Source: Bryoerythrophyllum caledonicum
Lineage: Eukaryota > Streptophyta > Bryopsida > Pottiales > Pottiaceae
Direction of reading: 5' to 3'
NCBI GenBank assembly: GCA_963971425.1
Contig: OZ020517.1
Span: 10,852,501-10,916,500 of the forward strand
DNA length: 64,000 bases
In this document: positions 19,570-63,310 of the stretch, in pieces
Layout of the letters: each line of letters begins with the position of its first letter
How positions within the stretch are numbered: position 1 is the stretch's first letter
The notes under the pieces: model-generated
What the model was told of the DNA's origin: nothing
The model's input: the letters and a program-made list of their open reading frames with translations, nothing else
Database searches by the model: none
Program-made: the position numbers and the translations under genes

Positions 19570-21943
19570 TGCTGTTGTTTCAGACTCTCGCTGGACTAAA
19601 CACGAGGTAGGCGCACACCCGTTCTTCTACGCTGATGACCCGTCCAAGTGAAGCCAGCATACGATGAGACGGATCCATCTTTGGATGGCGAGTTTCTTCA
19701 AAGCGATACACGGCACACCACACCATCAACTGTAGTGCACAGTCGAGAATGAATTCCTTTCAAATATACGTCAATCAGCTATGTGATAGAAATATCAGGA
19801 AATATGCGAAGCACCATGGTGTACTGCCAGTATTCGAGAATCAGCATATACGTAGGACGGAGCCAGGCGCATTCGTCGAGTAAGCCTCCTTCAACATTGA
19901 ATTGTGAGACCATATGTCAGACAGAGGGGAGACATTGAGTCGACGAATGATTCACCGAAGCCGCGCGTACTGCCGCAGAGAAGGCAATATCAGAAGCTGT
20001 GTTACATGTGCAAGTAAGCTCTACGTTGGTATCGGGGAGGAGTCCTCACATACCTCACATAACACCACCTAAGAACATTAACGGAAAAAGAAGAGAAGAA
20101 AACACATCCGTATCTGAGATCTCTGCAGCCTCACAACATCTACGTCATCCTACAACGCATGATCTGGAAATTTATGGAAGGTAATGGCAGCTCCACGGTT
20201 TCACTGGAAATGAAGCCACAGGTATGATTTTACATACTAAATTTTGAGGTAAGTCTCCACCATGAGCTCCAGGGTAATCCAAGTGCGCGCCGTCACCGCC
20301 AGGCTCCACAAGAGGCAGAAGCTCGCCGGCACTTCAGGGGACATGTTGCCGTTCTGAGTAAAATCCAGGCAAGTGATCTCAACAACTGATCGAGAGCCAC
20401 GCTCATGTTAGTCATGCGCATGCCCAGGAGGACCTCTGATGGAATCCCTGGCGGTGTCGAGAAAGTTCTACTCGATCGGAACTCAATAAGTTGTAAATCT
20501 TCCTGTGGACAGTACTACTCGCAACTCTACTTAAGTAGATACTCTTCTTCCAACCCTCATACTTAACAAGAACACAGGAATGAAGCCAAATTTCATCTTA
20601 CACTTGCAGTCACCACGCACGAAAACACTGCGCCAACACTCTCTCCAAAAAATACAGTAATCAGATACAAACAACTGCATTAGAGATCACTCCAACCTTC
20701 AGACTCACGCCACCAAGACCCCTCCGACAACTCCAGTAAGCCTCAAGAGCTCACCACACCATGACTGCAACTCACCAGCACTTGACGTCACACGCATAAA
20801 TCCACATATCACCAGGACCTAAACATAACGAAGAGATGTAACCACCACACCGCATCCTGAGCGCATTCAATTTGATCAGTTCACAGCCACATGTGAGTTA
20901 ACACGCATATCGACAGGAAGAGCATTAGAGCCTACACAAAGAGATGAGAGAGAGGAGGCACGTACAGGATGGAGTAGTAGTAACGAGGCGCTGGCTGTAG
21001 CGATGGTGGAGAATACAAAGGCGAGCAATGGCGAAGAAGAAGCTCCGACGCCTGCTGCATTGACATTCTCGAGACGATGACATATTCTGTGGCGGAACGG
21101 GCGTAGAGAGTGTCATCAGTCCGTACCGGTCGATTCCTCGACCGGAACGGGCGTAAAGTGTTCCAATTCGAGGACGGATTTGTCGTCCGTGTTCTGACCT
21201 TACTCCCTTCGTGTTGATTACGAGCACAGCTTGGTTCTGTGTTGTAACTGTCCTGTGGTGTTTGGCTTACCATGAGAGGATGCCATATTCTGTAGCGGAA
21301 CAAGCGTTGTGAATAAAGAGAATTACTGCTTCTGCATATTTTAGTGGAGTACCAATTTTGAACGAATGAAAACATGTACGAGTCTCCTTTTTAGCACAAT
21401 CTTGATTCAGGGTTCCTTGATGCTACAGAAAAGGTGACGTAAAAGAGGTAACACATCAAAAGTTGACTCAAAAGAGGTCTTTCATCCATGAGAATATTCC
21501 TTATGTCAGGGGAAAAACAGAGGCTAATATCCCAGGTACAAGGAAGCAACAATCAAGTCCATGAACATAAAACAAACGACAGCACCAGAAGGATAATTCA
21601 GTCTTCGCATGAAGAATTCAATGTAAAACACACACGTCCCTTGTTCACAAATCATGTGGAATCCTCACCATTTGAAGGCTCTCCAACTGCTTCTTCTGTG
21701 ACAATTCTTCCATCTTTTAAGGAGGATTTGACGTTCCGGAAGCTCTTTGACTCGATCCCGTAGACACTGGGCCCACACCTGAGGATTGTCCAAATCCACA
21801 ACCGGAGCCAACTTTTCCCGAATGGAACTCGGTAAAAGTGGCTCCCTCCATCTTTGGCAACATGGAGATGCGGGTATAGTACGTGCACTTTTTTAATTTA
21901 GGGTTTAGGGCTTGGTTTGGGGGAGGATGCAGGAATGCTATCT
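19570..21943. other. Upstream region of the kinase gene, no gene recognised
   Basis: About 2.4 kb holding the expected promoter of the minus-strand kinase gene. Short open frames occur on both strands. A stretch near 21650-21890 has a minus-strand frame of 78 codons plus a second open frame, and could be a lost exon. I recognise no family in it. TTTAGGGTTTAGGG (telobox-like) is near 21898. Confidence 0.35.
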
Positions 21944-21974
21944 TGTGAGCGGTGAGCGGTGAGCGGCGAGCACT
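21944..21974. repeat. Heptamer array (GTGAGCG)n, copy 1
   Basis: Four consecutive heptamers of the type RTGAGCG / GCGAGCA follow the word GCTATCTT. The same arrangement, reversed, occurs at 56223-56263, and a longer version with GCTAGCGT in front occurs at 63311-63383. It probably marks one end of a dispersed element. Confidence 0.7.
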
Positions 21975-22787
21975 GAATTCATGACAATTTTTACCATTGT
22001 TTTTATTGTGAAATTAAAAAGAACACCTATTGCCGTGAGTGTAGGTGGATTGTGCTTAAAAAAATCGAAATAAAAACATTAACATAAGAGAAATTTTGGA
22101 CTTGCAATTGCTTTAATTTATCGTTTATTTAATAGAGGCACCTATAGCCATGGAACTATTTTTAGAATTTTGGGGAAATTTTACATCCAAATGGAAAAGG
22201 ATAAGAGATAATGAAACATATATTACAATGCAAACTATTATTCCAAATAATAACGATTTCATATATGATTAATGGGGGACAAGTACATCTATAATATGGA
22301 GATGAAGTACATCTATTCAACAATCAAAATTATTTTACTGCAAATGTCTTAAGACCATGGATAAGCTTTGCTTGAATAACTCTGCGACTTGCAGTAGAGG
22401 AATTCTCTTGGATGTGTATTACTATTCAAATTAAGCCAAATACGTAGTATTATTTCTAATGATTGTTAAGGTTAAAGGTAACTCCTGTCTGAAGGTTTAG
22501 GGTGGTGAATGGAGAGAATGATAGTGATGGACCATCTAAAAATATTCAAAACTTCTTATACTATTCATGATGCGATAATTGTATAGTTCTAAATTCAAAT
22601 ACGCATTATTAAAAATGATTAAAATCCATCCGAGTATGATAATTCAATATCTATTAGATTATCTAACTAGAGTAAAAACATTTATGAGGATGAAACAAAT
22701 AATCAAATAAGACATGCAAGGGTGATATATATCCATAAATCCAAAGCCTTATATCAGGTCAATACGGCATACAAAATAGAGGAATCA
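21975..22787. other. AT-rich DNA next to the heptamer array
   Basis: No gene is seen. The words CACCTATTGCCGTGAG (about 22026) and CACCTATAGCCATGGAAC (about 22138) resemble words found next to the other two heptamer arrays, so this stretch may be the body of a repeat element. Confidence 0.4.
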
Positions 22788-23390
22788 CTACTCCTCAGAT
22801 GTGAAGTCATCGTCACTGCCCTGATGGATAAACGGCATACTGCTATCAGAACCACTATGAGAATCAGTATTAGCCTCCTCAGCCTCGTCACCCACAAAAA
22901 CCTTCGCTTCGGAGCCGGATCGAGCAGTCGGTGGACGTCGTGGAGGCGACGGCTGCGCTACGGATGCAGTAGCAGCAACTTCAGCATACTCAGGCAAAAT
23001 ATGCGGCTGCTCCGGACTGACAACCTTCCCTGCCAAGCGAGCCAGCACTCCAACGGGAAGTGTTGACAGAGAAGCCATCAACGACGTCGAGAACCGTTTG
23101 CAACTAATTTACATTAGCAAAATACCAATGATAGAATAAGATAACGAAAAAAAAATCAATGAAGAGAACTTACTTACAAGTTCTCTTCGGCGTAGTCTTT
23201 ATCTCTGGTTCATCATCACCAAGCTCCAAAGGGCGCTTGAGAGAAGTCTGCTCCATGGGCTCAACAGTCGCAGAATTAACCTCCAACATCTGTGGAATCA
23301 TGGGTCGAAGCACCTCGTCTACCAAGTCTTTGTTTGCTTCCAAGGCAAGAATATGACGCTTGAGGGCTTTGCAAGCCTTGATAGAGGCAC
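22788..23390 (-). CDS. Last two exons: motif I region and acidic C-terminus
   Basis: Exon 23390-23174 continues motif I (GASIKACKALKRHILALEAN), equal to the glycine loop and the acidic residue that binds the ribose in AdoMet enzymes. The final exon, 23103-22788, has a proline/serine-rich stretch and ends SDDDFTSEE before TAG. The junction uses TGTAA|GTAAGT and ATTAG|TTGC. The C-terminal tail is unlike any domain I know. Confidence 0.5.
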
Positions 23391-23478
23391 CTGGAAAAAG
23401 AGTGGAATACAAACAGTAATAAGTAAGAATCAGTTTTGGCTAATCAAAAAACAAAATGTTTAAATGAAATGCAAATAC

Positions 23479-25117
23479 CAATAGAAGCGGTGAGGTCCAT
23501 GACGATTTCATCCTCCTTAGTGCAAAGATCAATAAGAGCCTCCAATAGATTCTACGACTTCTTTCTGGCTCCTCGCCATGGCATCCCGGTGGAAGCCCTC
23601 ATCGTCAGTGACTCTTGGGTGATGTAGTTGGTCGCATGACCGTCAGAAGAAAGCTCAATCCCATCCGCCAAAAGCTCCACTCTGTCATTGAAGACAAATG
23701 AAATTGGAGGATCCCTCTTCCGAACGAAGCACTTGACCATGAAAGTCTTGTGTACGCGGCCGGGGCGACCATTAGAGAAGAGCGGAAGTCCATTGATGGC
23801 GAACCACTTCGCCTCTTCGTCAAATCTCGACCACTGAGCCCAGGAAACCAGTTCATTTGAAATGAACCTGGAATCTGGATAGAACACGATGATAGCTCCT
23901 CCATCACGAAGAAACGACTCTGTCAACTCGAAGTTAAATCAAATCCACAATGATTCTCTCCGACCCTTGGGGGTCGACACTGTAGGTAGTGTATTCCATG
24001 GTGGAATCACAGTACCACCCTGAATGCCTGGGACTGGCAAGTCCTCTGGAATGTCAAATATGAACATATCCGCCAAACCATCCTCAGTCAACTCCCCCTT
24101 CATATACTGCGACTTGGATCCGCTGTGGGCCATCAACCACTGTGCTATATCCCTCCAAACTGGGAGAATGTCATCCTCAGCAGTAATTGAATCATACTCA
24201 GTAAAGATAGAGTAGGCGCTGATATTGCTTACCTCAACAGCTACAATGGACTCTGTCTGCTCCACTACATGAATCGAATAGATGGTCTACGTTGGTTTTG
24301 TAACGAATGCTCCTGGGCGGCTGCCGGCGGATGGAGAAGCGCCAAATGTTGTCAATACAGGTGCTGGCTGCGAGAACGATCCAAGATCCACGGCAAACAA
24401 CAATTTCTCGAGCCCCTCCTTCGCCACCAGAGCTGTCAAGTCCTTGTTCCTTACTCGAGTCTCTTTCCTCTCCTTCCTGGCAGTCTCCTTCTCCAATCGT
24501 GCCGCTTTACGCTCTGCTCATCTGGCTGCAATCCTGGCCGCCTTCTGTTTTGCCCTCTCCTTGGCCTTTTCAGAGAGCTCAAGCTCAGGCTCAATCTGGA
24601 ATGGAGCTGAAGCTTGTAAAGGTGGACCCGCTCCTGAATGTGTTGCAAAGGCATCACAAGACTCCCGAAGCTTCACCTTGTCATCTGGAGTTGGAGCTGA
24701 ATGCCAATGCTCCAAGTACCAAGGACACTGAGCAAAACGATCCCGAGTAAAACAGCGCAACTGAGACTCTGTGAAGATGCACTCAGCGCTAACTGTGGTA
24801 TCACACCACTTCTTCAGCCGGATTGACAACTCTCGAGGCTGCAAAGCTCCGTTTGCAACGAGCTCTCTCCAAAAATATCGGAGCACCACTCTCTTGACAG
24901 TTTGAGGTGTCTCTGGCTCCTTGAGAAACTCATCAGACTTCACGAACGGCTTCGTCCCACTAAAATGGTTCTTAAACGCCTTCTTCCAGAACGTGAGAGA
25001 GTTGGCTTCAACCCATGAGCCAATATCCAGTACGGGGTTCGGGAGACCCTCCATCCTAATGGTGATATTGTCTTCCTTCATGACCTGGGCAAATAACTTC
25101 TCAGCCTCCTTCTCAAA
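23479..25117 (-). pseudogene. Large exon: linker and first part of the methyltransferase-like domain
   Basis: One frame runs 1639 bases, starting FEKEAEKLFAQVMKED and ending at DLTASI|G, and is broken only by TGA 24518-24520, TAG 24287-24289, TGA 23939-23941 and TAG 23552-23554. No frameshift separates the pieces and the exon keeps phase 1 at its 3' junction. Composition changes from a charged coiled segment (about 24380-24560) to a mixed alpha/beta segment (24265 onward). Substitutions only and no indels suggest young or methylation-driven decay. Confidence 0.65.
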
Positions 25118-26173
25118 CTATAAAATTAAAAAAATAATGTTACAAAACATACCTCACAACTGATGGAAAATTAATACAAAAAATGCGAACACGATGATTG
25201 TACTTACCACTGCCCAAAATGAAGCCACGTCAAGCCAGGGTTTGAGACTAATCTCCGAACATGGTGCTTTTGGGAAATTGTATTCATCTCTGCCTTCTTT
25301 CGACAAATTCCACCAACGCATCCATCTACCTTTGAACCTCGCAAAAACCTTGGAAGTGCAAAGGAGTTACAATTTCTCTTATGTGATTTCTGGCTTGTTC
25401 TGATAAACATCGTAATGATGTAGAATCTGAATTAGAGGACAACAATTTTAAATTAATACTATTAAAATAAGTATATGATGTTGAATGAACTAGTACGATG
25501 AATTGCACAAACGATTACCTCTTTGAAAAACTCTTCACCATTACGAGGGTCAACAATGGCAAGAAGTCGCGTGAGTAAGGTGCCACATTGAGTCTTCTTC
25601 TTTTGCACCGCTTTGGAGCACAGAGTGACCAAATCCGCCGAGCTCCCAACACGATCAGCCCCAACACCGGTCACAAGTGTGTCACGGTAAGTTCGAATAC
25701 AATCCTCTTGAGCTGCAATAAGCTCCCGCTACACGAAAAAATCAATTAAGTGAGTATGAGAATAATTGCCAAAATAACACACAATAACATATCATAAACG
25801 TATTCAGGACCACACATAATAGCATATAGTATGAAAGCTAGAGCCAAGTTAATTATCAAAACGTATCTCATAAAGTAACTTCAAGAATGAATCGAAGGTC
25901 ATATGGTACCACTTTTTGGTCCCCTTTCTAGCCCACTCCGCCACACTAGCATCGTGATCCTCCTCACTAATGAGACCCTTGAGCTGATCGAAGTCCAACA
26001 ACCCAAAATGTTGAACTCTCTTCACATCATGTGACAGTTGTTGTGTCACATGGTCCGAGTCTTTTTGCCTGAGTGACAATATTCATGAACATCAAAGAAT
26101 TGGAGAATAACCAAAGAAATACAAACAAATGTTAAAAAACCAAACAAAAAAAGAAATAAAGAAAAGAACTCAC

Positions 26174-26850
26174 TTGTTCCAGTCCGTCATGGCGTTTAGT
26201 AATATATGGCGGTTCCCCAATGTGGGCTCTAACAAAACAGCCCGAACCGGAATATGAAACGCAGAATCGTTCTTATGCATGGTGGATATGACATCTATCC
26301 ATGTAAGATTGCGGTGGTTGCCATCCCATACAAAAAAATAGCGATCAGAATGGCAATGTAACTCTGGCCTACTCGCAATCAAAGCTTCGAACTTGTGGTT
26401 TTCCTCACGCCAAATGTTTGACCATCCTGAGCGCTCCTCAGGAAGAACTTCCCGTTCTACCATGGAAAAGTTTCTCAAAGCAACATAGAAACAAGCAAAT
26501 CCTGGGTGGTAGCCTTTGACAAACTCACTCTTCAGCTTCTCGATGTCCGGCTTGACTGGAATACGCACCTCAGTCATTGGCAACATTCGGTAGAGTGGGA
26601 TGTACAACTCCCCGATAGTTGGAGAATGAGACTTCTGCAGCACATCGTAGGAAGTCTCACGAATGGACTTCCTTAATGAAAGCTCTATAGTATCCAAACC
26701 AGGGTCAACCCCCAACGCCGGTACAACTTGCAGGACTAAACTCGAATCCGCATGTGGAGATCCCAAAGCTTCAAAAGCAGAAGTAGTGTCCTTATTGGGC
26801 TGCTCTGAGTCCTCAGTTGGTGTGACCATGTCCCCATGCTGTGATGCCAT
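26174..26850 (-). CDS. Exon carrying the ParB-like DGNHR domain
   Basis: This 226-codon frame opens with MASQHGDMVTPTED and is free of stops up to a consensus donor (AA|GTGAGT) at 26174. The IPVKPDIEKLKSEF stretch corresponds to the ParB helix that sets out residues to try, and YFFVWDGNHRNLTW to the G-x-R/HR catalytic or nucleotide-binding motif shared by ParB and sulfiredoxin folds. Assignment rests on motif reading, not on a search. Confidence 0.6.
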
Positions 26851-27110
26851 CTACACACATCCATGGTACATAATCTTTTGTTACATACATGAGCATGAGA
26901 CTGGGGCTAAAATAAAATCCAGGAGAAGAAACATAAACAACAGATCATGAATATAGCAAATATCGAATGAGGTCGTATGAATCCAGCAAGTAGGTATCAT
27001 CCAAGATGTTAGAAACATCAAATTAAAACGCACATATAAGCAGCTAAAAAGAATGTTTGTGAGACCAAATGTTAAGTTGTCAATATAAAAAAACGCCAAG
27101 AACTCGTGTA
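26851..27110. other. Sequence immediately upstream of the ParB-like exon
   Basis: A splice-acceptor-like GTGTGTAG sits directly before the ATG at 26850. Otherwise this is AT-rich DNA leading into the tandem palindrome array. It is either promoter/leader or the 3' end of a long intron. Confidence 0.4.
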
Positions 27111-29980
27111 CCTCGGATCCGAGGCATCAACAGACCATCACAACGAACTTCATGCTTTATTCTAAGTATGAAAACATATAATTCAACTCCACTAAGTAAA
27201 CAGGCCAGCAATCAAGCCATGCAAGTTAAAAACCTCATAATCATACATGCGTCTCAAGAAAATGAAGGTTCTCATGTAGAGAGGACGACTTGATCTCACA
27301 CCAGAACTTACACGAGCATCAAAAGAGCATTAGATCGAGAACAACATAGGTGAATTCACTAAAGGAAACAACAAAGTCTACCCAAGAATACTGCGAATGT
27401 GTATCCACTACGACTTGATCTCACACCAGAACTTGCACGAGTTCAACACAATTGGTTCCAAGAACGTGCATAAAACAAACGAGTAGCATGCAGCATAAAA
27501 ATCGCATACTGAAGAGAATGCGAATCATACAACTTGGACGTGCAATCGCCTACCTCGGATCCGAGGCACCTGAAGACTTCTACAAATGTCATTTGAGAAT
27601 TTACACAGGCCACAGGAATGCGTGTGTGAGATACAACAATTCAAAAGCTTGAAGACCTCAGAAAGAAACGGCAAAGCTAAACCCACATCGACCCAAAAAA
27701 AAATTCAGAATGGTGCTCTCCATGAGTCCCTCGGATCCGAGGGACCCTTAGTTCTCTCGAAATCTAATCTCATTCTGGTGGGTACATCATTCATATCTAA
27801 ACTTAAGCAATAGAACATGAACAAACAAAGATGATCTTAGCAACTATCGCGTGAGGTCGCATGTCTCCAGCAAGTTAGTATCATTCAGGATGTAAGAAAA
27901 ATCAACTTAAAACGCACATGTAAGCAGCTGAAAAGAATGTTAGTGAGATCGAATGTGAATTTGTGAATATTAAAATACCACTACCACTAGTGTACCTCGG
28001 ATATGAGGCAACAACAGACCATCACATCACACTTCAAGCATTATTCGAAATATGAAAAAAAGAATTAAAATCTACAAAGAAAACAGTCCAGCAGGAAGAA
28101 TATACGATTCTTGCATGCACAATCTGCATGAACAATCAAAAGCCTACAACTACACAAATTCAATACGTATGTGGTTAATGAATAAGCATGAAAGTTAATG
28201 ACCACATAATCACACATGCGTCTCAATAGGAATGACCCCAACACTTGCAAGAGGACAAATGAACGTTCACATGCAAACAAGACGACACGAATCTCACACT
28301 AGCACGATGAAGAAATCATCACTTTTGATTCTCAAAACTTGCATAAATCAATCGAGTAGTATTTAGCATTTAAATAGCGTCATCATGAGAATGCGAAGGA
28401 TGCAACCTGGACCTGCAATCACATACCTCGGATCCGAGGTACCTCCAGACTTCTTCTAAACTCATTTAAGAATATACACACGCCACAGGAATACTTGATT
28501 GAGATTCAACTAATCATAAGCAAGAAGACCACAGAAGGAAACGGTGAAGGTGAACCCACATTGACCAAAAAAAATAAAAATAAAAAAGGTGCTCTCCATG
28601 AGTCCCTCGGATCCGAGAGACCCTCTGTTCTCTCGAAATCTGATCTCATTCCCGTGGGTAGATCATACAGATCTAAACTTATACAATAGAGCATGAACAA
28701 CATAGATGAATTTAGCTACTATCGAGTGAAGTCGCATCATGCCAGCAAGTTTGTATCAATCAGCATATTAGACTCATCAACTAAGAACGCACATGTAAGC
28801 AGCTGAAACGAATGTTAGTGAGACCCAATGTTAATTTGTGAATATTAAAATACCACTACTACAAGTGTACCTCGGATCCGAGGCATCAACAGACCATCAC
28901 AGAACACTTTAAGCATTATTCTAAGTATGAAAACACATAATTCAACTCCAATTAGTAAACTGCCCAGCGATCAAACCATGCAAGTAAATGACCTCACAAT
29001 CATCAATGCGACTCAAAAAAACGAAGGTTCACATGCAAAGAGGACGACTTGATCTCACACCAGAACTATTACGAGTTCAACTTTATTGGTTCCAAGAACG
29101 CGCATGGAACAAACGAGTAGCATGCAACATAATCAGAGCATCATGAAGGTCATGCGATTCATGCATCCTGGACGTGCAATCGCCTACCTCGGATCCGAGG
29201 CACCTTAAGACTTTTACAAATCTCATTTGAGAATTTACACACGCCACAGGAATGTGTGTATGAGATTCAACTATTCAAAAGCTTGAAGACCACAGAAAGA
29301 AACGGTATAGCTAAACCCACATCGACCAAATAAATAAATTCAGAATGGTGCTCTCCATGAGTCCCTCGGATCCGAGGGACCCTCAGTTCTCTCGAAATCT
29401 GATCTCAAAAACGATAGTACTTCATACAGATCTAAACCTAAACAATAGAGCATGAACAACAAAGATGAATTTAGCAACTACCGATCGAGGTAGCATCAAA
29501 CCAGCAAGTTTGTATCAATCAGCATGTTAGACGCATCAACTAAGAACGCACATGTAAGCAGCTGAAAAGAATGTTACTGAGACCGAATGTTAATTTGTGA
29601 ATATTAAAAAACGACAAGAACTCGTGTACCTCGGATCCGAGGCATGAACAGACCATCACAAAGAACTTCATGCTTTATTCTAAGTATGAAAATACATAAT
29701 TATAATCCACTAAGTAAACAGTCCAACAATCAAACCATGCAAGTAAATGACGTGATACTCATAAATGCGTCTCAATAAAATGATGTTCACATGCAAAGAA
29801 GACGACTTGATTTCACACCAGAACTTGCACGAGCATTAAAAGAGAATAAAACCAAGAATAGCAAGGTGAATACAATAATGCAAACAGCGAAGTCTACTCA
29901 AGAAAACCGCCAGTGTGTATCCACTTCGGTATTAAAAAAACGAAAGAATGGTGATAATCATCAGTCCCTCGAATCCAGAA
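27111..29980. repeat. Tandem array of about 0.88-kb units, each with three CCTCGGATCCGAGG palindromes
   Basis: Units repeat with periods of 884, 875 and 759 bp (anchors 27111, 27995, 28870, 29629). Each holds an A site (GTACCTCGGATCCGAGGCA, followed by ACAGACCATCAC), a B site (27553, 28426, 29187) and a C site (27729, 28605, 29364, 29967) extended to GTCCCTCGGATCCGAGGGAC. Eight sites are perfect 14-bp palindromes; 27995, 28605 and 29967 are damaged. The DNA between sites is repeated too (TGAGTCCC, CGCACATGTAAGCAGCTGAA). No protein is encoded. The array lies directly 5' of the ParB/methyltransferase-like gene. Confidence 0.85.
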
Positions 29981-31054
29981 TCTTAGAATCATTAAAACCC
30001 AAATTCTAATACACCAGTAGGGATGAGTAATCTTGTGCCGCGGTTCCGAGGCACATTTACACATGATTGATCCCACAAGCGAATTCCACATATGAAAGTG
30101 CGACATGAAGGATTCAGTTCAGAGTAGAAATATAACTCACGAGAAGCGCCAACCGGTTCGGAGCGGCCTCGCTAACGTCAATGAGAGCAACGGTAAACCC
30201 TCCTTCGGCACGACTCACTGCAGCGCACACCTGATAAAGACACAGAAATTTAGGGTTTACCAAACCTTTGGAAATACCACTCACAGATTCAGGGTTTAGG
30301 AGATGAAGTAATTAGGTTTTGGGTGTTGGGTTTATTGGTATTGACTAGGGTTTAGACTACATAACATCAGTATTGAACATAAATAGAAGACACGGGACAA
30401 AATGAACGAGCAAATGAACAAGCATTCAAATGAAGAAAATGGAAACGAGCCGGTGATAATTTCGGGTATTCACCTGTCTAGTTTGAGTCTGCAGCACCTT
30501 GTCGTCGTGTGTCGTCCACTTCCTTCTCCAACCTCAACAAGTCCAGCCTGCAAGTGAAAGCGATAACATGTTATGAAAATCGTCTCATGCAATTCCACAT
30601 ATGCATCTAACCTAATCTCCAAGGACAAGTTATACCTGCGATGCAATGGAAGAAACTAAAGCCCAAGTATTTTCATTCACCAAAAGTAGACTTCAAACTG
30701 AAATTAGACGAACTAAATGGTAGGTGTAGGAATGTACAGTGACCCTTAAGAGTAGCAAGGGCTTCTGCACGAGTAAGAAATAAAGTAGTAGTTTTGACTC
30801 AACTCTGAGAGATGATCCAAATGCCCTAAAACTAACGCATATTGAATCCATCAATCTCTAGGAAGTTAAAATATACGGTTCTAAATACCTAATTTTCTAG
30901 AAACCATAACGCACAATATAGTTGGAGATTCATTGCGATAAATATGAAACCATGAATAAGATGCATATTGTTAAACATTTAGAAGATATCGTACCTGTGT
31001 CATTTGGGCCCGCTCCGCATCCAACAGTATTGACCCACTTTCCCCCGCGCTACC
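29981..31054. other. Mostly non-coding region with possible minus-strand exons
   Basis: A clean candidate exon lies at 30230-30141 on the minus strand: TTTATCAG acceptor, 30 open codons (VCAAVSRAEGGF, ALIDVSEAAPNRLALL), then a GTGAGT donor in phase 0. A second possible exon is near 30478-30551. They could be 5' exons of the ParB-like gene, with the palindrome array lying in an intron. TTTAGGGTTT-like words occur at 30250-30345. Confidence 0.35.
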
Positions 31055-31595
31055 TCAATCGGTCCTTGGTCGACCAATGGTTGCCCTAGACGAGGACCGA
31101 TTCCTATTTCTTGTGGATTGTGATGAATTTACTCGGCTCTTAGGGTCCATACTAGAGTCCATGATTTGGCAGTCATTGTCGTCAACAACACCGTTGGCAC
31201 CCTTACTCCCATGCATCGAGCTTACTGATGCATTAGGTCCCGTGAAATCACTCGTCACGGTAACTTGTATAGACTCTTCTTCCCCCCTTTCTCTATGTTG
31301 CTACATCAAATTGCTGGACGACTACACATTACAAATTTTAAGTATGACCAATACATCATTGTAGAGTAAAAACTAACTAAGCATATGAATATGAAGCATG
31401 CACTCGAACAGAATAGTGAGCCGCCTCTTCCGCTTGGAGAATACTTGACAAATTCCTGAATCGAACAGGCCCTTCAGATGACAGGTCCTCACGACTCTCC
31501 TCAGAAGCCAAGGCCTTGTGCTGTTGTGGCTGCGTAGGGGACCTCCTGGGCTTAAACATCATATTCATTATATTGGGAGATTGGGAGCCTCCCAA
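31055..31595 (-). CDS. Hypothetical two-exon serine-rich coding segment
   Basis: Two open minus-strand frames, 31595-31377 (MGGSQSPNIMNMMFKPRRSP, ends HYSVR before a GTGCAT donor-like site) and about 31300-31055 (QHREREEGESIQVTVTSDF then Ser/Arg-rich to RPRTD), could be exons of one gene. Composition is polar and probably disordered. I recognise no family. They may belong upstream of the ParB-like gene, or be unrelated. Confidence 0.3.
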
Positions 31596-31787
31596 AATAT
31601 TATATGAAGCTTATGTCGACCTAAATATGCAAATATTTAGTGAATTTACACAATGAATTTTGTCCTATATGTACAATATGGGTACATATTCAGCTCGAGT
31701 CGAGCTGAATGTGCACAATCATTTTCTATTGGGAAAACCATTCATACCTTTCAAAGTCCTGGAAATCTCCCAATATAATGAATATGG
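31560..31787. repeat. Perfect 21-bp inverted repeat around a 186-bp spacer
   Basis: The word at 31560-31580 (starts CATATTCATTATATTGGGAG) is the exact reverse complement of 31767-31787. Similarity continues a little further outward. It may be a small inverted-repeat element or a hairpin close to the retrotransposon insertion point. Confidence 0.6.
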
Positions 31788-31866
31788 TGTTCTTAGGATT
31801 TGAGTAGTGTGTTGTTCTTCTCTTCCGGCCACCCTTGCTTCTCATCCTCTGTAAGTCGTACTACTT

Positions 31867-31870
31867 GCGT
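31867..31870. repeat. Left copy of the 4-bp target-site duplication GCGT
   Basis: GCGT at 31867-31870 directly precedes the first LTR, and the same four bases follow the last LTR at 51072-51075. Integrase of Ty3/gypsy elements makes 4-5-bp duplications, so the whole array behaves as one insertion. Confidence 0.7.
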
Positions 31871-34185
31871 TGTCGTGTAGAGAGGGGAGCGCTTTGAGAA
31901 TTCACGGGGAATCTGGCTGCAACCGGAATAGATGGCAGGAGAGTCCAGTCGTGTCTTCAATTCTTCAAATCTTCATATCTTCATCTCTTCGACTCTTCAA
32001 ACAGCTCCCCGTTGGCCTATCCTGTGGTGGCTCTAAACGGGTTTAGGGTAAAGGTAAGGTGATAAGAACCCACGGCCTCGGACGGGTAAAACGGGACGGC
32101 CAGACCACAAGCTGAAACCGTCCGAAAGATTGGCTCCTAAAATTCAAACCCACGGTGACCAGCAATCGCGCCTCACCGGTGGGAACAACATAAATACGAC
32201 CGTGTGGGTGATCAACCCCACTTCGCCGCAACAAAATTTACGAAGCAGAATTGAAAAGAACTAGCCTCCAAATCCGGCTGGGAATAACAAAAAAAAGACA
32301 ACGAGCCTCCAAATCCGGCTAGGAATAACAAGCCACAAGCCACAACACACGAGTCTTCATGTCTTCTTATCTTCTAGTCTTCAAGTCTTCAAGTCTTCAA
32401 GTGTTCAAAAACACTAAGAAACTCAAAAGAAGTGTTCAAAAACACAATGGAAAAATTTCCATCAAGGCTGTAACCTTCAAACAAGTGCCATAGATGACTC
32501 AAAACTCCAACTACTAAGTTTAATAACTTTCTGTAAAGCTAACACAAATAACTAACACTCCTCCAAATTTCAAATCATTCTAAACTACTGTCCGAAAGTT
32601 ATGTGAGTTCAAAGTTCCGCCCTTCTAGAAATTCAATCGCTCATAACTTCTTTTTCAAAACTCCAAATCTTAATTGTAATAGCTTTTTGGAGAGCTATAA
32701 CAATGGTGCACACACCTTCCAAATCTCAAACCATTCTAAACTACTGTCCAAAAGTTATGGCTTGTTGAAACCTCTGCCCTCTCAATGGATGGCCTCGGGT
32801 TTTTACAATTTCAAACCTTCATAACTTTTGCAATTCAACTCTAATCAACTTGAATGATAAATTTATGGAAAGCTAAACAAAAGTTATATAACTCCTGAAA
32901 TTTTCAAAGAAAGACGCAAAAACTACAAACTTTGGTGGCCGCCCGAATCTCTGCTCCTCTTCGTTGGGTGGCAGCAGACCCTCCTCCACTCACACGCTTG
33001 TAACTTTTTGTCCACAACTCCAAATCAAGCGAAAATAATCTCTCTGGAAGCGCATCTCAAAGAGGAAGAAACCCTCAAAATTTCATTCAAAAAAATTGCT
33101 TACAACCAGAGTTCTCGCCCATCAAACTCTCGGCTCTCTACACACCCACACACACTTTCTCTCCAAAGCACACTAACTTCTTTTTCCCCCAAAACCCGAC
33201 TAGGAGGGAGAGAGAAGATGCCTACCTACCCTCTAGACCCCTAAGGTGGATAAGATCAGCCCATGTGCATATCACATGGGCCTCAAAACACCCATTGGCT
33301 CTAGGAAAACTCAAAAGATAAGTATCTACTTATCTTTAAAGGTCAACAAACCTTTAGAGTTCTAACTAGGAGGTAAACTACCCTCTATCTACCATCTTTT
33401 AACTTCTAACATTCAAATGAAACACAAAACACAAAAATTTAGTACAAAGCTTCAATCAAAAACAAGTAGAGGTAAAAACTAAAGTCAAAGAATAGTGCTA
33501 CTCCATCTGCAAGAACTTGAGGATGCGCTTGATAGTACTTGCAATGTAATCTGCACGTTGAGTCTTTGTCAAAGGATTCACTGGCCCTTCTAACCAACGA
33601 TGGTGGCCAGTGCTTAGCTCGATTGGCCTAGGTATACAGAAATAATGGTCTTCGTTCAGGCCCTCGAAACTGCCTTCAAATGTCACTTCACGGGTGCCTG
33701 GTTCAACACATCCAGTTTGAAGTAAGATTACTAAAACACGCGCGTCCTTTTGGAGATTACCATGCCAACGCTGCTCAACACGAGGCTGCTTTAGCGGACG
33801 AGAAGATCCAGCTTCATCTTGCGGGTGAAATGGCAATGGTGAAGAAACCGCCGGCTGGGATGGTTGAATTGGCAACTGAGACAAGGAAAGCTGTAAATCT
33901 ACCTCCGGTTCAGACTCTTGATCTTGTGACTCCATAAAAACCCTCCAGTTCGACATATTAGTCCGAACTTCAAATCCAAACACAAACTCTAAGAACGTAA
34001 AGGAATACTTCGAATTGGTGAATATTGTTTACGGCTTTCGCCTTTTAAACAATTCCATGAGCAATAAGCGTCACCTTGAAGCTACTGGAAGCGTCACCAA
34101 TAAGTTTCGTCCTTCTAATCAAAGATCTTTCCAAAAAGGTAAACAAGTAAATATTTTATACACTGAAAATATTTACATCAGGACA
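31871..34185 (-). repeat. LTR 1 (3' LTR of copy 1)
   Basis: The LTR begins TGTCGTGTAG and ends ATCAGGACA on the plus strand, so it carries the TG...CA ends in either reading. It includes CTTC-rich imperfect repeats (31950-32010 and 32350-32405), a duplicated GCCTCCAAATCCGGCT block (32264 and 32306) and a 161-codon minus-strand ORF. Confidence 0.95.
33498..33983 (-). CDS. LTR-encoded 161-residue protein of unknown function (LTR 1)
   Basis: An intact ORF lies about 200 bp inside the LTR, in the same orientation as gag-pol. It starts MFGFEVRTNMSNWRVFMES and ends IKRILKFLQME. The first third is acidic and Pro/Ser/Gln-rich (QLPIQPSQPAVSSP); the rest looks globular (RWHGNLQKDARVLVILLQTG, HYFCIPRPIELSTGHHRW). 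It lacks a signal peptide and membrane segment. I recognise no family. Plant LTRs rarely keep a long ORF, so it may be a captured host piece or an accessory protein. Translation is not shown by the sequence. Confidence 0.5.
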   Translation of the reverse strand: MFGFEVRTNMSNWRVFMESQDQESEPEVDLQLSLSQLPIQPSQPAVSSPLPFHPQDEAGSSRPLKQPRVEQRWHGNLQKDARVLVILLQTGCVEPGTREVTFEGSFEGLNEDHYFCIPRPIELSTGHHRWLEGPVNPLTKTQRADYIASTIKRILKFLQME

Positions 34186-34201
34186 TTCACCCCCTCTAAA
34201 C
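34186..34201 (-). other. Polypurine tract, copy 1
   Basis: Read on the minus strand, TTTAGAGGGGGTGAA directly precedes the TGTCC start of the 3' LTR. This is where plus-strand DNA synthesis is primed in LTR retrotransposons. Confidence 0.8.
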
Positions 34202-34228
34202 CTGCACATCCTTTGGTATGTGCCAAAC

Positions 34229-37200
34229 TCAGGGGTCTTCATTATCTTGGTGATCATGTAGTGCATCTTCGAATGTTTCATGATCTTCTTCGGTCTCATC
34301 TTCCTCTGTATCTTGGTCTGGGATCATGAAGCTATTCAAGTCCTCATCATTGAATCTGCCATCTCTTCTTCTGAATGCTTTGATCCTCTTTCCAGCTATT
34401 GGTACACGCAGAAGAGTCCCGTCTAATTCCCGAAGTGAATAAGTGCCATTTTCATAGACTTTGACCACAATATAGGGTCCAAACCATCTTTTGGCAAATT
34501 TACGCACTGTAATGTGTTGGTGTTCCAAGGTACTATCAAAGACAAGTACACAATCACCTTCTTCGATTTTCTTCACCCTCAGCCGGTGTGTCTTGTCAAA
34601 GCGCTCTTTGTTGCTAAGCCTTGCAGTCTTTAATTTTTCCAATGCCACCTCCAGGTCCTCAGGCAATCTTTCAAGTTGTTGAATGCGAAGTTCTAACAAC
34701 CTTTCTCTGGTAATTCCATCCTCCCATGAAAGAAACATCCATGTAGGAATGTTTGCTTCCCCTGGCATCATTGGCTTCTGACCATGCATAAGCTCCACAG
34801 GCATGTAACTAGTCACAGTACTATGTGTGGTTCTATCAGCCCATAGAGCAAATGGAAGTAGTTTCGGCCACACACTAGGCTTTCCTTTGCAGGCCTTGAC
34901 TAGAGCATGAATGATTGGAGGATGACCTCTCTCAATTTTGCCGTTGGCCTCAGGATTGTAAGCCGTAGTCAGCTTCAACTGCACACCATATCGCTTGAAG
35001 AATTCTTTGGCTTCACTAGCATTCAATTCTCCTCTGTCAGCTCTCATCCGACCAATACTCCCATACCGACTAAAAATGTCTTCAAGTATAAATCGGCACA
35101 CATTCTCTGTTGCCTTGGTCTCCAAAGCCCTTCCTTCGACAAAGTTTGAGAGCTCTTCCCGGGCGAAAACAAGGTACTTCATTCCCCACATTGTACTTGG
35201 CATGGCAACCAAATCAATCATCCATTGAAAATGGAGTGCAACGGGGTAAGTGGGATGTAATTCGTCTCTGTGCCGCACCTTGGATTGTAATTGGCATATT
35301 GCAGAGGAAGCTACATACTCTTCAACATCTTTATATAGCCCTTTCCACCAATATCTCTCCTTAATTTTTGTATACGTGGCCCACACTCCTCTGTGACCAG
35401 CCCAAAGTGTATCATGAAACTCTTGTAGAACTTGGGTCTTGGTTTCAGAGTCTCCCACCACTCTTAACGGCACTTCACTAGCTATTTTTGCCCTCTTCCA
35501 TAGAAATCCATCTTTCAACAGATATCCATAAGACTGATGTCTGATGTCTTTGAATGTCTTATCCATCCAACTTCTTTGTCGCTCCATTGTGCTCAAGTAG
35601 AGCCCAATATCTCTCAGCTTTCCTTCGTACAACTCAGACTTGAAAGGCAATACTCTAGTAGACGAACTTTTACCATCTATGTTCATCACATAGCCCCCGT
35701 GTAACAATTCTTCACCATGTTCATAAGCCATCATCTCTTCTTCATTGAAATACCTTGCTCTAGACAACATATCCGCTACAGAATTCTTTCTGCCTTCAAT
35801 GTGAACAAGAACAGGGTTCAAAGACTTGATGTAGGCTATCCAGCGCAGCATCGCAATGTCTGGTGAAGAACAATTTGCTATCATCCCCAGCAAAGGCAAG
35901 CAGTCAGTTTCTAAAACTACCTCCGCACCAATCAAGTAGTTTCTGTCCACTTTTAGAGCAGTAAGGGCACCCCAAAGTTCTCTTTTTACTTGTGGGTAAA
36001 CCCTCTGCCGCTCTGTCAAGATCCTTGCTCCAAATCGGATAGCAAATCTATTCCCTTCTTCATCATCCTGTCCAACAGCCCATCCAATTGCAATTGGACT
36101 CGTATCAACAGTTACAATCACCGGTCTTCCACAAGTATAACTCACTTGTTTAAGAACCGATGGTGATTCCAAGATTCTCTTCAGCTCCATCATAGCTCGG
36201 TCTTGCTCACGCTGCCAAACAAATTTGTTTCTCTTGCGCAATAGCTTGTAAAGAGGTTCTGATATATGAGCAAAATGAGGGATCCAAATTTGGTAGAAGA
36301 CACAGGCTCCTAAAAACCTCCTTACTTCAGTGATATTGCTACAGGCCTTCATTCTCCCAATAGCATCCACCTTCTCAGGGTTAGGTTTTCTTCCATAAGA
36401 ACCACATAAGTGTTCAACCACCAAAATCTCATCAACCCCAAACTTGGATTTCTCAATGGAGAGAGTCAAATTGACCTCCTCCAATTTGTTCAAGATTTTG
36501 GCTACATCTTCAATATGATTACTCACAAAGGCTTTGCAACCATCATCTTGAATGGTTAAGTCTCTTCCTTTCTCCTCGCACCCTTTCATGGGAATGTCAT
36601 CCACAAAAGGTATGGTTTTCTCAGGCACAAAGTCTCTTAGGATTTGATTCATGGCGCTCTGCATATGTGCCACCGAGTTGGTAGCACCTTGAGGCAATGT
36701 ACACATGCGCACTAATCCAAGTGGAGTCTTCATGGTTGTTAAATCTCTACTCTCAGCAGCTAGTTGAAATTGATCATAACCAGAGTATAGATCTCCAATG
36801 GAATAAATTGCATGCCCCGCAAATGCTTCAGCTACTTCATCAACAATAGGCCCTGAGCCCTTGTTTCTGATTGTCACTCCATTTGCTGGCTGCATATCTT
36901 GAATGAACCTCAATGCTCCCGATTTCTTTGGCACTGTGAACCATCGATTTGAATATGGAGCCATTGAAGGTTCAAGTATGCCCATGCGTGTCTTTTCTTT
37001 GAGCAACTCTACAAGCTTCGGAAGTAGAGCTCTAGGCACAGGTATAGGCTTCAAATCCCATGGTACATGCGGTACCGTAAAAATAACCATTGGTGCCACA
37101 ATAGTTGGATGTACACATCCAATTTCATCTGGCGAAGAAGCAAAGGCCTTTCCATGCTTCGAAAGCATATCTTGAAATTTCTTCTTCTCCGGCTCAGTTA

Positions 37201-37789
37201 AAAAATCATCTCCACCAATCTTCAAGTTTGCCAAAGTCTCTTTGGTGAACTTGTGTCCAATCCTCCTTGCTTCTCTCAAACTTGGCTCTTTCTCAGCTTG
37301 TCTGATATGATCATCAGTGTCAGGTGGTAGCTGAGTAGCCACTGGCTTCACCTTCTTGGCCACAGTTTTGTATCTTGTATGAACTGAAGCTTCCGGTCTC
37401 TGCCCATCAATTCTTGAACTATCAAAGCTTGTTATTGCTGTGGAAATCTCATGATACATTGCACTTGTATGCACATTGACAAAGCAATGAGTAGCTCCCT
37501 TCGCATCCGTGTTTGTTTTTAGATCTTGCAAAGTCTGCAAGATATCATCTGGCATTCCATTCTCTTCATAAATACCAGAAATAGTCTCATCTTCTTCTAA
37601 AACCTTCATCTTTTTTAGATTTTTCTCCATCTTTTTCACAAACTTTCTATATACAGGGTCCAAATCTTTGACACCCGTAAAGCTCACAAAGCCGCACTCT
37701 GTCACACTTAAAAATCCACACCTAATGTTGGTGTGTACATTGGGGAACTCGCCAATCTTAATTCCCTTAGCACCCGTGGATCCCCACAT
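34229..37789 (-). CDS. pol: Pol: reverse transcriptase, RNase H, integrase, copy 1 (1186 residues from ATG)
   Basis: Pol copies the RNA to DNA and integrates it. Reverse transcriptase (about residues 200-470) has DLYSGYDQFQL, LPQGATNS and the catalytic FVDDI near residue 396. RNase H (about 555-680) has VTVDTSP, KRELWG, LETDC and NSVADMLSR. Integrase has a zinc region H-x-H (EFHDTLWAGHRG) with SSAICQ (one Cys replaced by Ser), then the D,D-35-E residues in WMIDLV, RADRGEL and NGKIERG. A GPY/F module (WFGPYIVV, about 1103) and an acidic tail follow; there is no chromodomain. The frame is open upstream to TGA 37868-37870, overlapping protease by about 60 nt in the -1 frame, so frameshifting is likely. 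Confidence 0.95.
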   Translation of the reverse strand: MWGSTGAKGIKIGEFPNVHTNIRCGFLSVTECGFVSFTGVKDLDPVYRKFVKKMEKNLKKMKVLEEDETISGIYEENGMPDDILQTLQDLKTNTDAKGATHCFVNVHTSAMYHEISTAITSFDSSRIDGQRPEASVHTRYKTVAKKVKPVATQLPPDTDDHIRQAEKEPSLREARRIGHKFTKETLANLKIGGDDFLTEPEKKKFQDMLSKHGKAFASSPDEIGCVHPTIVAPMVIFTVPHVPWDLKPIPVPRALLPKLVELLKEKTRMGILEPSMAPYSNRWFTVPKKSGALRFIQDMQPANGVTIRNKGSGPIVDEVAEAFAGHAIYSIGDLYSGYDQFQLAAESRDLTTMKTPLGLVRMCTLPQGATNSVAHMQSAMNQILRDFVPEKTIPFVDDIPMKGCEEKGRDLTIQDDGCKAFVSNHIEDVAKILNKLEEVNLTLSIEKSKFGVDEILVVEHLCGSYGRKPNPEKVDAIGRMKACSNITEVRRFLGACVFYQIWIPHFAHISEPLYKLLRKRNKFVWQREQDRAMMELKRILESPSVLKQVSYTCGRPVIVTVDTSPIAIGWAVGQDDEEGNRFAIRFGARILTERQRVYPQVKRELWGALTALKVDRNYLIGAEVVLETDCLPLLGMIANCSSPDIAMLRWIAYIKSLNPVLVHIEGRKNSVADMLSRARYFNEEEMMAYEHGEELLHGGYVMNIDGKSSSTRVLPFKSELYEGKLRDIGLYLSTMERQRSWMDKTFKDIRHQSYGYLLKDGFLWKRAKIASEVPLRVVGDSETKTQVLQEFHDTLWAGHRGVWATYTKIKERYWWKGLYKDVEEYVASSAICQLQSKVRHRDELHPTYPVALHFQWMIDLVAMPSTMWGMKYLVFAREELSNFVEGRALETKATENVCRFILEDIFSRYGSIGRMRADRGELNASEAKEFFKRYGVQLKLTTAYNPEANGKIERGHPPIIHALVKACKGKPSVWPKLLPFALWADRTTHSTVTSYMPVELMHGQKPMMPGEANIPTWMFLSWEDGITRERLLELRIQQLERLPEDLEVALEKLKTARLSNKERFDKTHRLRVKKIEEGDCVLVFDSTLEHQHITVRKFAKRWFGPYIVVKVYENGTYSLRELDGTLLRVPIAGKRIKAFRRRDGRFNDEDLNSFMIPDQDTEEDETEEDHETFEDALHDHQDNEDP

Positions 37790-37803
37790 CCCACGTGTGC
37801 CCT

Positions 37804-38235
37804 TTAGAAATCCGGAAAGTTCGTAGAAGTTGGTAGAGGGATCTCTCTGAGTTGAAGCCGATGCCTCTCATTGTCAGGCCTCACCGTTAAGAACTGCACT
37901 GACCTCTTTCCATCAACACTTCGAATCCGGGCATAATGAGACCCGTCATCCAACACCTTGGTCTCCATTCGTGAAGCGGTGATAAATGGTTGGCCCAAAA
38001 TTATCGGATAGGCACTAAGGTTTTGAACACAGAAGTTTTGCTCAACCTCCACATCTCCAATTTTTGTGAGTACTGCTGGGCAAGCTCCATGCAGCCGGGT
38101 CCGTCCGCTATTGGCTGCTCTCATAATCCACCCATGGTCCGTATCAATCGGCCATTTGCCCCTTTCATAGACACTCCGAGATATAATGTTGATCTCAGAA
38201 CCATGATCAACAAGAGCTAAAATGTGGTCATCCAC
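37804..38235 (-). CDS. pro: Aspartic protease, copy 1
   Basis: This domain cuts the polyprotein. The active-site stretch is ALVDHGSEINIIS, with DHG where retropepsins normally have DSG or DTG, and the downstream hydrophobic flap/ILG region reads YPIILGQPF. The frame is the same as gag and is open from the UAG at 38275 (13 codons before this ATG) to TAA at 37804. The natural product is therefore probably a gag-protease readthrough protein rather than one started at 38235. The DHG form is in both copies. Confidence 0.8.
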   Translation of the reverse strand: MDDHILALVDHGSEINIISRSVYERGKWPIDTDHGWIMRAANSGRTRLHGACPAVLTKIGDVEVEQNFCVQNLSAYPIILGQPFITASRMETKVLDDGSHYARIRSVDGKRSVQFLTVRPDNERHRLQLREIPLPTSTNFPDF

Positions 38236-38274
38236 CCCTCCGAGCTTTATCTTCGTCTCAGTGGTGGCCCTAGC

Positions 38275-38277
38275 CTA
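38275..38277 (-). promoter_or_regulatory. In-frame UAG between gag and protease, copy 1 (candidate readthrough)
   Basis: The frame reads TTACCGTTC-TAG-GCTAGGGCC and stays open on both sides, with gag and protease in the same frame. Suppression of a single UAG followed by G is a known way to make gag-pol in some retroelements. Both copies keep it. Confidence 0.7.
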
Positions 38278-40275: not shown

Positions 40276-40292
40276 ACCAGTTGCCTCAAAGC

Positions 40293-40313
40293 TCTCTCAG
40301 TGGAAGCACCAAA
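40293..40313 (-). other. Primer-binding-site region, copy 1
   Basis: On the minus strand TTTGGTGCTTCCACTGAG follows the 5' LTR after ACGACA. TGG near the LTR edge is expected to pair with the CCA end of a tRNA primer. I cannot name the tRNA with certainty; it is not the common initiator-Met site. Confidence 0.6.
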
Positions 40314-42628: not shown

Positions 42629-42644
42629 TTCACCCCCTCTAAAC
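42629..42644 (-). other. Polypurine tract, copy 2
   Basis: Same sequence and position relative to LTR2 as in copy 1. Confidence 0.8.
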
Positions 42645-42671
42645 CTGCACATCCTTTGGTATGTGCCAAAC

Positions 42672-46232: not shown

Positions 46233-46246
46233 CCCACGTGTGCCCT

Positions 46247-46678
46247 TTAGAAATCCGGAAAGTTCGTAGAAGTTGGTAGAGGGATCTCTCTGAGTTGAAG
46301 CCGATGCCTCTCATTGTCAGGCCTCACCGTTAAGAACTGCACTGACCTCTTTCCATCAACACTTCGAATCCGGGCATAATGAGACCCGTCATCCAACACC
46401 TTGGTCTCCATTCGTGAAGCGGTGATAAATGGTTGGCCCAAAATTATCGGATAGGCACTAAGGTTTTGAACACAGAAGTTTTGCTCAACCTCCACATCTC
46501 CAATTTTTGTGAGTACTGCTGGGCAAGCTCCATGCAGCCGGGTCCGTCCGCTATTGGCTGCTCTCATAATCCACCCATGGTCCGTATCAATCGGCCATTT
46601 GCCCCTTTCATAGACACTCCGAGATATAATGTTGATCTCAGAACCATGATCAACAAGAGCTAAAATGTGGTCATCCAC
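46247..46678 (-). CDS. pro: Aspartic protease, copy 2
   Basis: Same sequence as copy 1, with DHG at the active site and YPIILGQPF downstream. It lies in frame with gag across the UAG and overlaps the upstream extension of pol. Confidence 0.8.
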   Translation of the reverse strand: MDDHILALVDHGSEINIISRSVYERGKWPIDTDHGWIMRAANSGRTRLHGACPAVLTKIGDVEVEQNFCVQNLSAYPIILGQPFITASRMETKVLDDGSHYARIRSVDGKRSVQFLTVRPDNERHRLQLREIPLPTSTNFPDF

Positions 46679-46717
46679 CCCTCCGAGCTTTATCTTCGTC
46701 TCAGTGGTGGCCCTAGC

Positions 46718-46720
46718 CTA
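46718..46720 (-). promoter_or_regulatory. In-frame UAG between gag and protease, copy 2 (candidate readthrough)
   Basis: Identical context to copy 1. Confidence 0.7.
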
Positions 46721-48718: not shown

Positions 48719-48735
48719 ACCAGTTGCCTCAAAGC

Positions 48736-48756
48736 TCTCTCAGTGGAAGCACCAAA
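48736..48756 (-). other. Primer-binding-site region, copy 2
   Basis: Identical to the copy 1 site, adjacent to LTR3. Confidence 0.6.
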
Positions 48757-51071: not shown

Positions 51072-51075
51072 GCGT
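51072..51075. repeat. Right copy of the 4-bp target-site duplication GCGT
   Basis: Matches 31867-31870. Five bases do not match (TGCGT versus GCGTG), so the duplication is 4 bp. Confidence 0.7.
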
Positions 51076-56222: not shown

Positions 56223-56263
56223 TGCTCACCGCCCGCCGCTCATCGCTCACCGCTCACAAGATA
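56223..56263. repeat. Heptamer array (CGCTCAC)n, copy 2, reverse orientation
   Basis: Five heptamers (complement GTGAGCG, GTGAGCG, ATGAGCG, GCGGGCG, GTGAGCA) end in CACAAGATAGC, the complement of GCTATCTTGTG at copy 1. Confidence 0.7.
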
Positions 56264-60502: not shown

Positions 60503-60531
60503 ACACTTCAAACGGCGGCGGGTTCAAGAAG

Positions 60532-63290: not shown

Positions 63291-63310
63291 TTTGGTACGG
63301 ACGAAGCTAG

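Follow-up and report, generated by a model that had tools for sequence, protein, structure and literature searches.

The 64,000-nucleotide stretch of the moss Bryoerythrophyllum caledonicum studied here (contig OZ020517.1, positions 10,852,501 to 10,916,500; hereafter the window) carries on its minus strand, from 26850 to 22788, a gene with seven coding exons, and a Mutator-like DNA transposon carries it as a conserved accessory gene. We think it somewhat likelier than the contrary that its product, a methyltransferase-derived protein, is a DNA reader of palindromes belonging to the element itself, which it would thereby control or release from silencing. A first-pass annotation of the same DNA had seen one gene only, probably because a nested retrotransposon tandem of the Ty3/gypsy type splits the two halves of the element.

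This gene is one of a large family. Exon 1 has at least 151 matches at E <= 1e-3 in the 437-Mb genome (the window lies on contig C4 of our numbering), a lower bound since 150 of 1817 candidates were scored; the list of matches contains several groups with equal scores. From these copies we sampled the 20-kb surroundings of ten (A1-A4, B1-B3, C1, C2 and D1, the letters denoting subfamilies), and 5.5 kb of three further ones (D2, the L036 copy and F1). In the window, the whole Mutator-like element spans 21930..56272, as delimited by the cores of its terminal inverted repeats (TIRs); it shares its gene order with A1, A4, B2, B3, C1, C2 and D1, and is interrupted by the retrotransposon tandem. The TIR adjoining the 3' end of the gene occupies 21930..21976 on the plus strand, and the TIR core GCTATCTTGTGAGC is located at 21937 (+) and again at 56252 (-). 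The element is flanked by the target-site duplications GGGGAGGATG on the left (21920..21929) and GGGGAAGATG on the right (56273..56282, read from the sequence), which are equal at 9 of 10 positions. Groups A and C share the core GCTATCTTGTGAGC with the window, and group B has GCTAGTTTGTGAGC. Exact 10-bp target-site duplications flank seven of the eight copies for which both ends were read (A1, A2, A3, A4, B2, B3 and C2); none was seen for C1, and no left end could be located for B1 or D1. Two features of Mutator-like elements are present, namely the terminal inverted repeats and a target-site duplication within the range of 9-11 bp that is typical of this class. Copies of one group have an identity of about 97-99.6% in their main aligned blocks (92% in one block of B3), which are of fixed length and stop sharply, and A2 and A3 can be aligned to A1 from end to end. 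The terminal 40-60 bp of the element contain short repeats of the GTGAGCGGC/GATGAGC type, the number of which varies between copies.

A putative transposase gene (about 740 plus up to 480 residues) is divergently oriented to the accessory gene in seven of eight copies (A1, A4, B2, B3, C1, C2 and D1). Its counterpart in the window consists of a transposase region at 51939..54044 (+), which is 74% identical to copy A1 in tblastn comparisons and retains the conserved blocks, and of a C-terminal region at 54103..55488 (+; 75% to A1) with a SWIM-type CxC...CxH finger recognised by eye. The conserved blocks (HVKRV..WTTMACHVYDS.YC.VMTIA.CDMQSED...MADSAGANW...TCL.HW), together with the finger, look like those of Mutator-type transposases with a SWIM finger, and the Pfam family PF00872 (Transposase_mut) was matched weakly in two copies, A1 and C1 (E 0.055 and 0.067). 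The transposases of B2 and B3 are only about 43% identical to that of A1, for which reason the association of the accessory gene with the transposase must be old.

Exon ends were set by GT/AG sites and by comparison with further copies from elsewhere in this genome. In the window copy, all on the minus strand, exon 1 (26174..26850) contains a putative ParB-like region with the block WDGNHR and is followed by exon 2 (25867..26068) and exon 3 (25519..25728), both delimited by the junctions of the relatives, and by exon 4 (25208..25426), delimited by exon matches in the relatives. Exon 5 (23479..25117) encodes a middle region, a charged region and most of the methyltransferase-like domain, including DIPE at the position of motif IV, while comparison with the relatives assigns the rest of the motif I region and a charged tail to exon 6 (23174..23390). 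Exon 7 (22788..23103) encodes an acidic C-terminal tail; its start is uncertain (23103 or 23097). This copy has decayed, as judged from six in-frame stops, two in exon 4 and four in exon 5, and from the loss of the exon-2 donor and the exon-7 acceptor; the frame of exon 5 is kept throughout despite its four stops. The exon-2 donor reads AT, as opposed to GT in five of six relatives, the sixth, C2, being frame-broken before its donor. At the acceptor position of exon 7 in the two nearest printed relatives (D2 and the L036 copy) the window copy has no AG, and an in-phase AG is found a few bases upstream. A phase break at the junction of exons 6 and 7 was withdrawn, since the donor shown by the relatives preserves the phase. 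The seven phase-consistent exons of the first-pass annotation are thus found where it placed them, but with six stops and two damaged splice sites they cannot be read through. An intact host gene was ruled out, given that the window copy is broken and the family mobile, as was a reassignment of stop codons: TAA, TAG and TGA all appear as lesions, and the standard code leaves the long frames nearby open.

All 13 relatives from the same genome have matches to all seven exons, and the junctions were read in six of them, some of those in F1 being left unresolved. The likeness goes beyond chance: the longest exon, exon 5, has 48-86% identity to these 13 copies. An exon-by-exon scan revealed no stop in the matched parts of A4, C2 and the L036 copy. 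The exon-6 acceptor of A4 is damaged, unlike those of A1-A3, and A4 was dropped as an intact copy for this reason; C2 has a frame break in exon 2. Of the 13 relatives, the L036 copy alone appears sound at all the junctions that were read. Ka/Ks ratios, calculated from six exons by the method of Nei and Gojobori, ranged from 0.106 to 0.238 in the 9 of 21 pairs with measurable Ks; in the remaining 12 pairs the silent sites were saturated, with pN/pS values of 0.32-0.40. These ratios indicate that the gene is under purifying selection across the copies. A single codon of exon 3 is a stop in A1, A2, A3 and D1, that is in two subfamilies, and not in A4, D2 or the window, which amounts to repeated decay at a single position.

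Upstream of the start codon of the gene, and a few hundred bases away from it, the window contains an array of about 3.4 degenerate repeats of 760-880 bp (26947..30060) with eleven copies of CCTCGGATCCGAGG, eight of them exact, one with one mismatch and two with two. In the window as a whole, 12 matches to CCTCGGATCCGAGG were counted at up to 3 mismatches, versus 1.2 expected. Arrays in the same place were found in the other subfamilies, with unit lengths of 126-127, 117 and 243 bp, and each unit contains a palindrome around CGGATCCG. The palindrome is ACCTTCGGATCCGAAGGT in subfamily A, TTTCGGATCCGAAA in the four regular units of subfamily B, and ACCCTCGGATCCGAGGGT in subfamily C, one unit of C1 having a palindrome of 14 bp. 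All four subfamilies examined (A, B, C and D/W) have the core CGGATCCG iterated upstream of the gene, and in the 20-kb stretches of seven copies (A1, A4, B1, C1, C2, D1 and the window) no core was found beyond the borders assumed for the element, those of D1 and the window having been set generously in this count. One further core is located inside exon 1 of C1 and C2. A single 10-mer, the palindrome TCGGATCCGA, is present in all of the arrays of A, B, C and the window, and 200 single-base shuffles yielded no shared 10-mer. The best matches between arrays are otherwise short, up to 48 bp, and hold the palindrome or half of it. The units of B1 are invariant at 44% of their positions, yet they contain an invariant run of 16 bp centred on TCGGATCCGA, and no other run exceeds 5. 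The pattern CYTCGGATCCGARG has 1388 sites in the genome, against 0 for its reversal. On contig C1, five exon-1 matches lie in range of its listed sites; three of these have sites 0.9-5.7 kb upstream, and the fourth, B1, has a variant flanked by T/A that falls outside the pattern. One cluster of sites without a listed gene turned out to be a decayed copy with remains of both the gene and the transposase.

The C-terminal 300 residues matched PF01555, the Pfam family of N6/N4 methylases, in all six aligned copies at E <= 1 (best E 4.8e-7). The first member of the alignment, which is the one printed, scored 28.5 bits against a cut-off of 26.7, with a match over profile positions 38-218 of 221, and the window copy scored 26.6 bits, just under the cut-off. 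Among solved structures DpnA was the best match (E 2.2e-4), the window copy also matched CcrM more weakly (E 0.096), and hhalign gave 95.6% over 54 columns against eight phage methylases. A phage search with the C-terminal part returned 50 records at E <= 10, and the 20 listed were all methylases; viral contigs gave no match. The first-pass annotation had noted VWDGNHR near the N-terminus, and had read LRDGGAIIVFY followed by MDLTASIGAS, about 600 codons on, as signs of a beta-class N4/N6 DNA methyltransferase. The strings are as described, VWDGNHR lying in exon 1, the beta-type permutation with motif IV before motif I was confirmed, and the methyltransferase-like half holds at the level of the fold. 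The catalytic motif, however, departs from this class: at the position of motif IV, assigned by eye after a [VA]DM[IVF][IL][FI] strand, all seven aligned copies have D[VI]PE in place of DPPY and hence none has the canonical (D/N/S)PP(Y/F/W). Motif I reads DLTASTGAS (TASTG) in D2, the L036 copy, C2 and B2, and in A4 if it is spliced at the homologous place, and DLTASIGAS (TASIG) in the window copy, F1 not being resolved; instead of the FxGxG motif that binds S-adenosylmethionine, the glycine pair is reduced to one glycine. The acidic residue after motif I is retained (ALE). Because DPPY is replaced in 7 of 7 copies, the C-terminal part is probably a methyltransferase fold without the usual catalysis. 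It shares with DpnA and CcrM, both N6_N4_Mtase proteins of the beta class, the Pfam match, the order of motifs IV and I and the conserved block around motif I, and differs from them in having D[VI]PE where they have DPPY, in its TASTG motif I, and in being part of a protein of about 1150 residues encoded by seven exons. METTL14-type proteins are inactive methyltransferase-like proteins that have kept the fold for binding nucleic acids; the likeness lies in the altered catalytic motif within a methyltransferase fold, and the difference in that they belong to the MT-A70 class and have an RNA target.

The loss of the catalytic signature, the maintenance of the gene by selection and the palindrome array in front of it lead us to suggest that the protein reads DNA. 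In the mechanism that we propose, the protein of about 1150 residues would act as a sequence-specific reader of the palindrome TCGGATCCGA and would occupy the array between the two divergent genes, near the start of its own gene. Occupancy of the array may then control transcription of the element or keep the element free of silencing, as VANC does for the VANDAL elements. VANDAL elements of Arabidopsis, themselves Mutator-like, likewise encode a transposase (VANA) and a second element-specific protein, and have a short motif iterated in the fast-changing tandem repeats of their noncoding DNA (PMC5735166, PMC10398659). VANC21 binds a 9-base motif that is arrayed in these repeats (PMC5735166) and induces loss of DNA methylation (PMC5735166, PMC10398659). 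The differences concern both the protein and its target. VANC has DUF1985 and DUF287 (PMC5735166), neither of which was found by Pfam in the proteins of the gene described here, and the present protein is methyltransferase-like, unlike VANC; the two are apparently unrelated by descent. The VANC21 motif, YAGTATTAY, is non-palindromic, whereas the core of the palindrome is kept across four subfamilies here. As to the effect of the predicted binding, the sequences would look the same under autoregulation, anti-silencing or an aid to transposition.

Several observations weigh against this proposal. The control for the genome-wide count of CYTCGGATCCGARG was a single reversed pattern, which contains no CpG, and the arrays were sampled from four subfamilies only. 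Not all sites in the array of the window are equally conserved: in units 1-3 two site classes out of three show no variation, and the third does no better than many other windows of these units (257 of 889). The gene copy at 10039924 on contig C1 has no exact site nearby among the sites listed, the 6 kb examined of site cluster L049 contain remains of a transposase and no gene, and copy B1 has the gene and the array and no transposase match in the 10 kb examined upstream. Finally, the palindromes could be bound by the transposase or by a host factor.

If that were so, the accessory protein would do something unrelated, an alternative that we regard as possible, though on the doubtful side. Cluster L049, with its transposase remains and no gene in the 6 kb examined, fits such a binder. 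On the other hand, the array lies by the start of the accessory gene in four subfamilies, and beta-class methyltransferase folds naturally read short palindromes. We infer that the candidate binder is the accessory protein rather than the transposase or a host factor.

A role in transposition itself, with the protein pairing the element ends or feeding the transposase and the array serving as an internal docking site, has a parallel in TnpA of the Spm/CACTA elements and is in our view unlikely. The presence of the gene together with the transposase in seven of eight copies would agree with such a co-factor, as would the alignment of A2 and A3 with A1 over their whole length. The position of the array would not, since it lies by the start of the gene and not at the ends, which carry their own GTGAGCGGC-type repeats, and B1 has the gene with no transposase match in the upstream DNA examined.

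We consider it equally unlikely that the protein is a true ParB-like clamp, in which exon 1 would form a nucleotide-binding fold of the ParB/sulfiredoxin type, the palindromes would be parS-like loading sites and the methyltransferase-like part would be a fused DNA-binding module. Exon 1 has 72 invariant columns among 12 copies, and its WDGNHRHxAW block resembles the GxxRxxA motif of ParB; read by eye, GNHRHxA is present in six of seven copies and GNHRNLT in the window copy, a motif too short to prove kinship. The iterated palindromes beside the gene also recall the ParB-parS partition systems, in which a palindromic site is repeated beside the gene of its presumed binder, but no ParA was noticed in the element, where no dedicated ParA profile search was made. 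Fusions of ParB with N6/N4 methylases are known in phages (PMC12704722; annotated in L043, L044, L045 and L047) and likewise have a GxxR-type motif ahead of a methylase domain and reside on mobile DNA; the present gene differs from them in about 600 extra residues between the two parts, in its seven exons, in the lost catalytic motif and in the lack of a ParB profile match. The main text of PMC12704722 includes eukaryotes in its survey and contains no word starting with "plant" or "transpos".

Profile searches did not support the ParB-like half of the first-pass annotation. PF02195 had no match in the whole genome, the control giving matches in 10 of 14 genomes, and none in the 12 aligned exon-1 proteins at E <= 10, in which Pfam and NCBIfam together yielded nothing ParB-like. 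Comparison by hhalign with ten phage ParB or ParB-methylase proteins gave 0.07% and a score of 9.75, which a reversed control (12.45) and the eight top-scoring of 60 shuffled decoys (15.5-19.0) all exceeded. The exon-1 profile recovered no ParB from solved structures, ribosomal eL24 alone appearing at E 0.02. The sole hint came from 1 of 12 proteins, whose GNHR block alone matched phrog_1033 ("ParB-like partition protein") with an E-value of 0.4. Two single-sequence AlphaFold models of the window sequence had mean confidence values (pLDDT) of 33.5 and 38.0, too low for the fold to be judged. Exon 1 had no significant relatives in phages (best E 0.3), none in plasmids, none in viral contigs, and none in prokaryote genomes in searches with patterns from two conserved stretches; ORF47 of Vibrio phage VHML was dropped as a chance match (E 5). 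The ParB resemblance of exon 1 is thus one of motif only. The idea of a eukaryotic ParB-methyltransferase gene keeps its methyltransferase-like part, but its ParB part is unsupported, and it misses the identity of the gene as an accessory gene of a Mutator-like transposon.

Under a bolder version, a Mutator-like family took up a phage-type protein with ParB and methyltransferase parts, the methyltransferase became the palindrome reader, and a parS-like array loads the protein, which by spreading shields the element from silencing. We hold such a centromere-like, nucleotide-switched anti-silencing system to be quite improbable. We give still less credence to a methyltransferase-like domain that remains an enzyme and modifies the element's own palindromes (core GGATCC/GATC) as a mark of the element. 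The fold recognisable over profile positions 38-218 of 221, the acidic residue kept after motif I and a target-like palindrome with a GATC core are in its favour; D[VI]PE for DPPY in every copy and an FxGxG motif down to one glycine are against it. That a host gene was captured in the manner of Pack-MULEs and merely rides along is very improbable, for although Mutator-like elements are known to capture genes, the same gene is found in the same place and orientation in subfamilies with 43%-identical transposases, is under apparent purifying selection and has at least 151 exon-1 matches.

The novelty lies in a Mutator-like element that would encode a reader protein for an iterated target of its own, the phage fusions of ParB and methylase being already known. 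Among the open papers of PubMed Central that the searches listed, none was seen to describe such a gene in a Mutator-like element. Few transposons are known to encode their own anti-silencing or regulatory proteins, VANDAL with VANC among them, and the present high-copy family offers a candidate protein of apparently other descent than VANC together with a conserved palindromic target. If the proposal is true, DNA transposons would have a second route to sequence-specific self-recognition, and a methyltransferase fold of the kind usual in bacteria and phages would have been put to new use, reading DNA as part of the product of an intron-containing eukaryotic gene.

Among the remaining parts of the element, a third gene for a small basic protein (RGRRRTTHYSN...) lies between the transposase and the array in A4 (G000:C10 ~3371.7-3373.8 kb), C2 and D1. 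The window has a fragment of it on the minus strand (31055..31860), which is split by a short insertion with 28-bp inverted ends at 31555-31791. The protein could be the product of a separate gene or of the first exons of the same transcript. The Ty3/gypsy tandem that interrupts the element, and is not part of the element proper, extends over 31871..51074 on the minus strand and is made up of three LTRs (long terminal repeats) of about 2318 bp and two internal regions, arranged in near-identical units of 8443 bp. No clear duplication was seen beside its two ends at the borders as set; such Ty3/gypsy tandems have been described in plants (PMC11899658).

Elsewhere in the window, no RNA gene was matched by Rfam at the gathering score and no tRNA was found. 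At 63808-63996 on the minus strand is a second fragment of a SWIM region, 51% identical to copy A1, and a TIR-like end of the TGAGCCG type is located near 63306; together they probably mark where a further Mutator-like element of this sort borders the window. An open frame at 60355-61416 (+) encodes 353 residues with no Pfam match, and its start overlaps a T-rich tandem repeat. Another open frame at 18148-19626 (-) has a protein kinase domain (PF00069, E 1.6e-36). At 2514-3270 there are nested inverted repeats, the longer of which is 289 bp in length and 97% complementary, with 34 bp between its arms.

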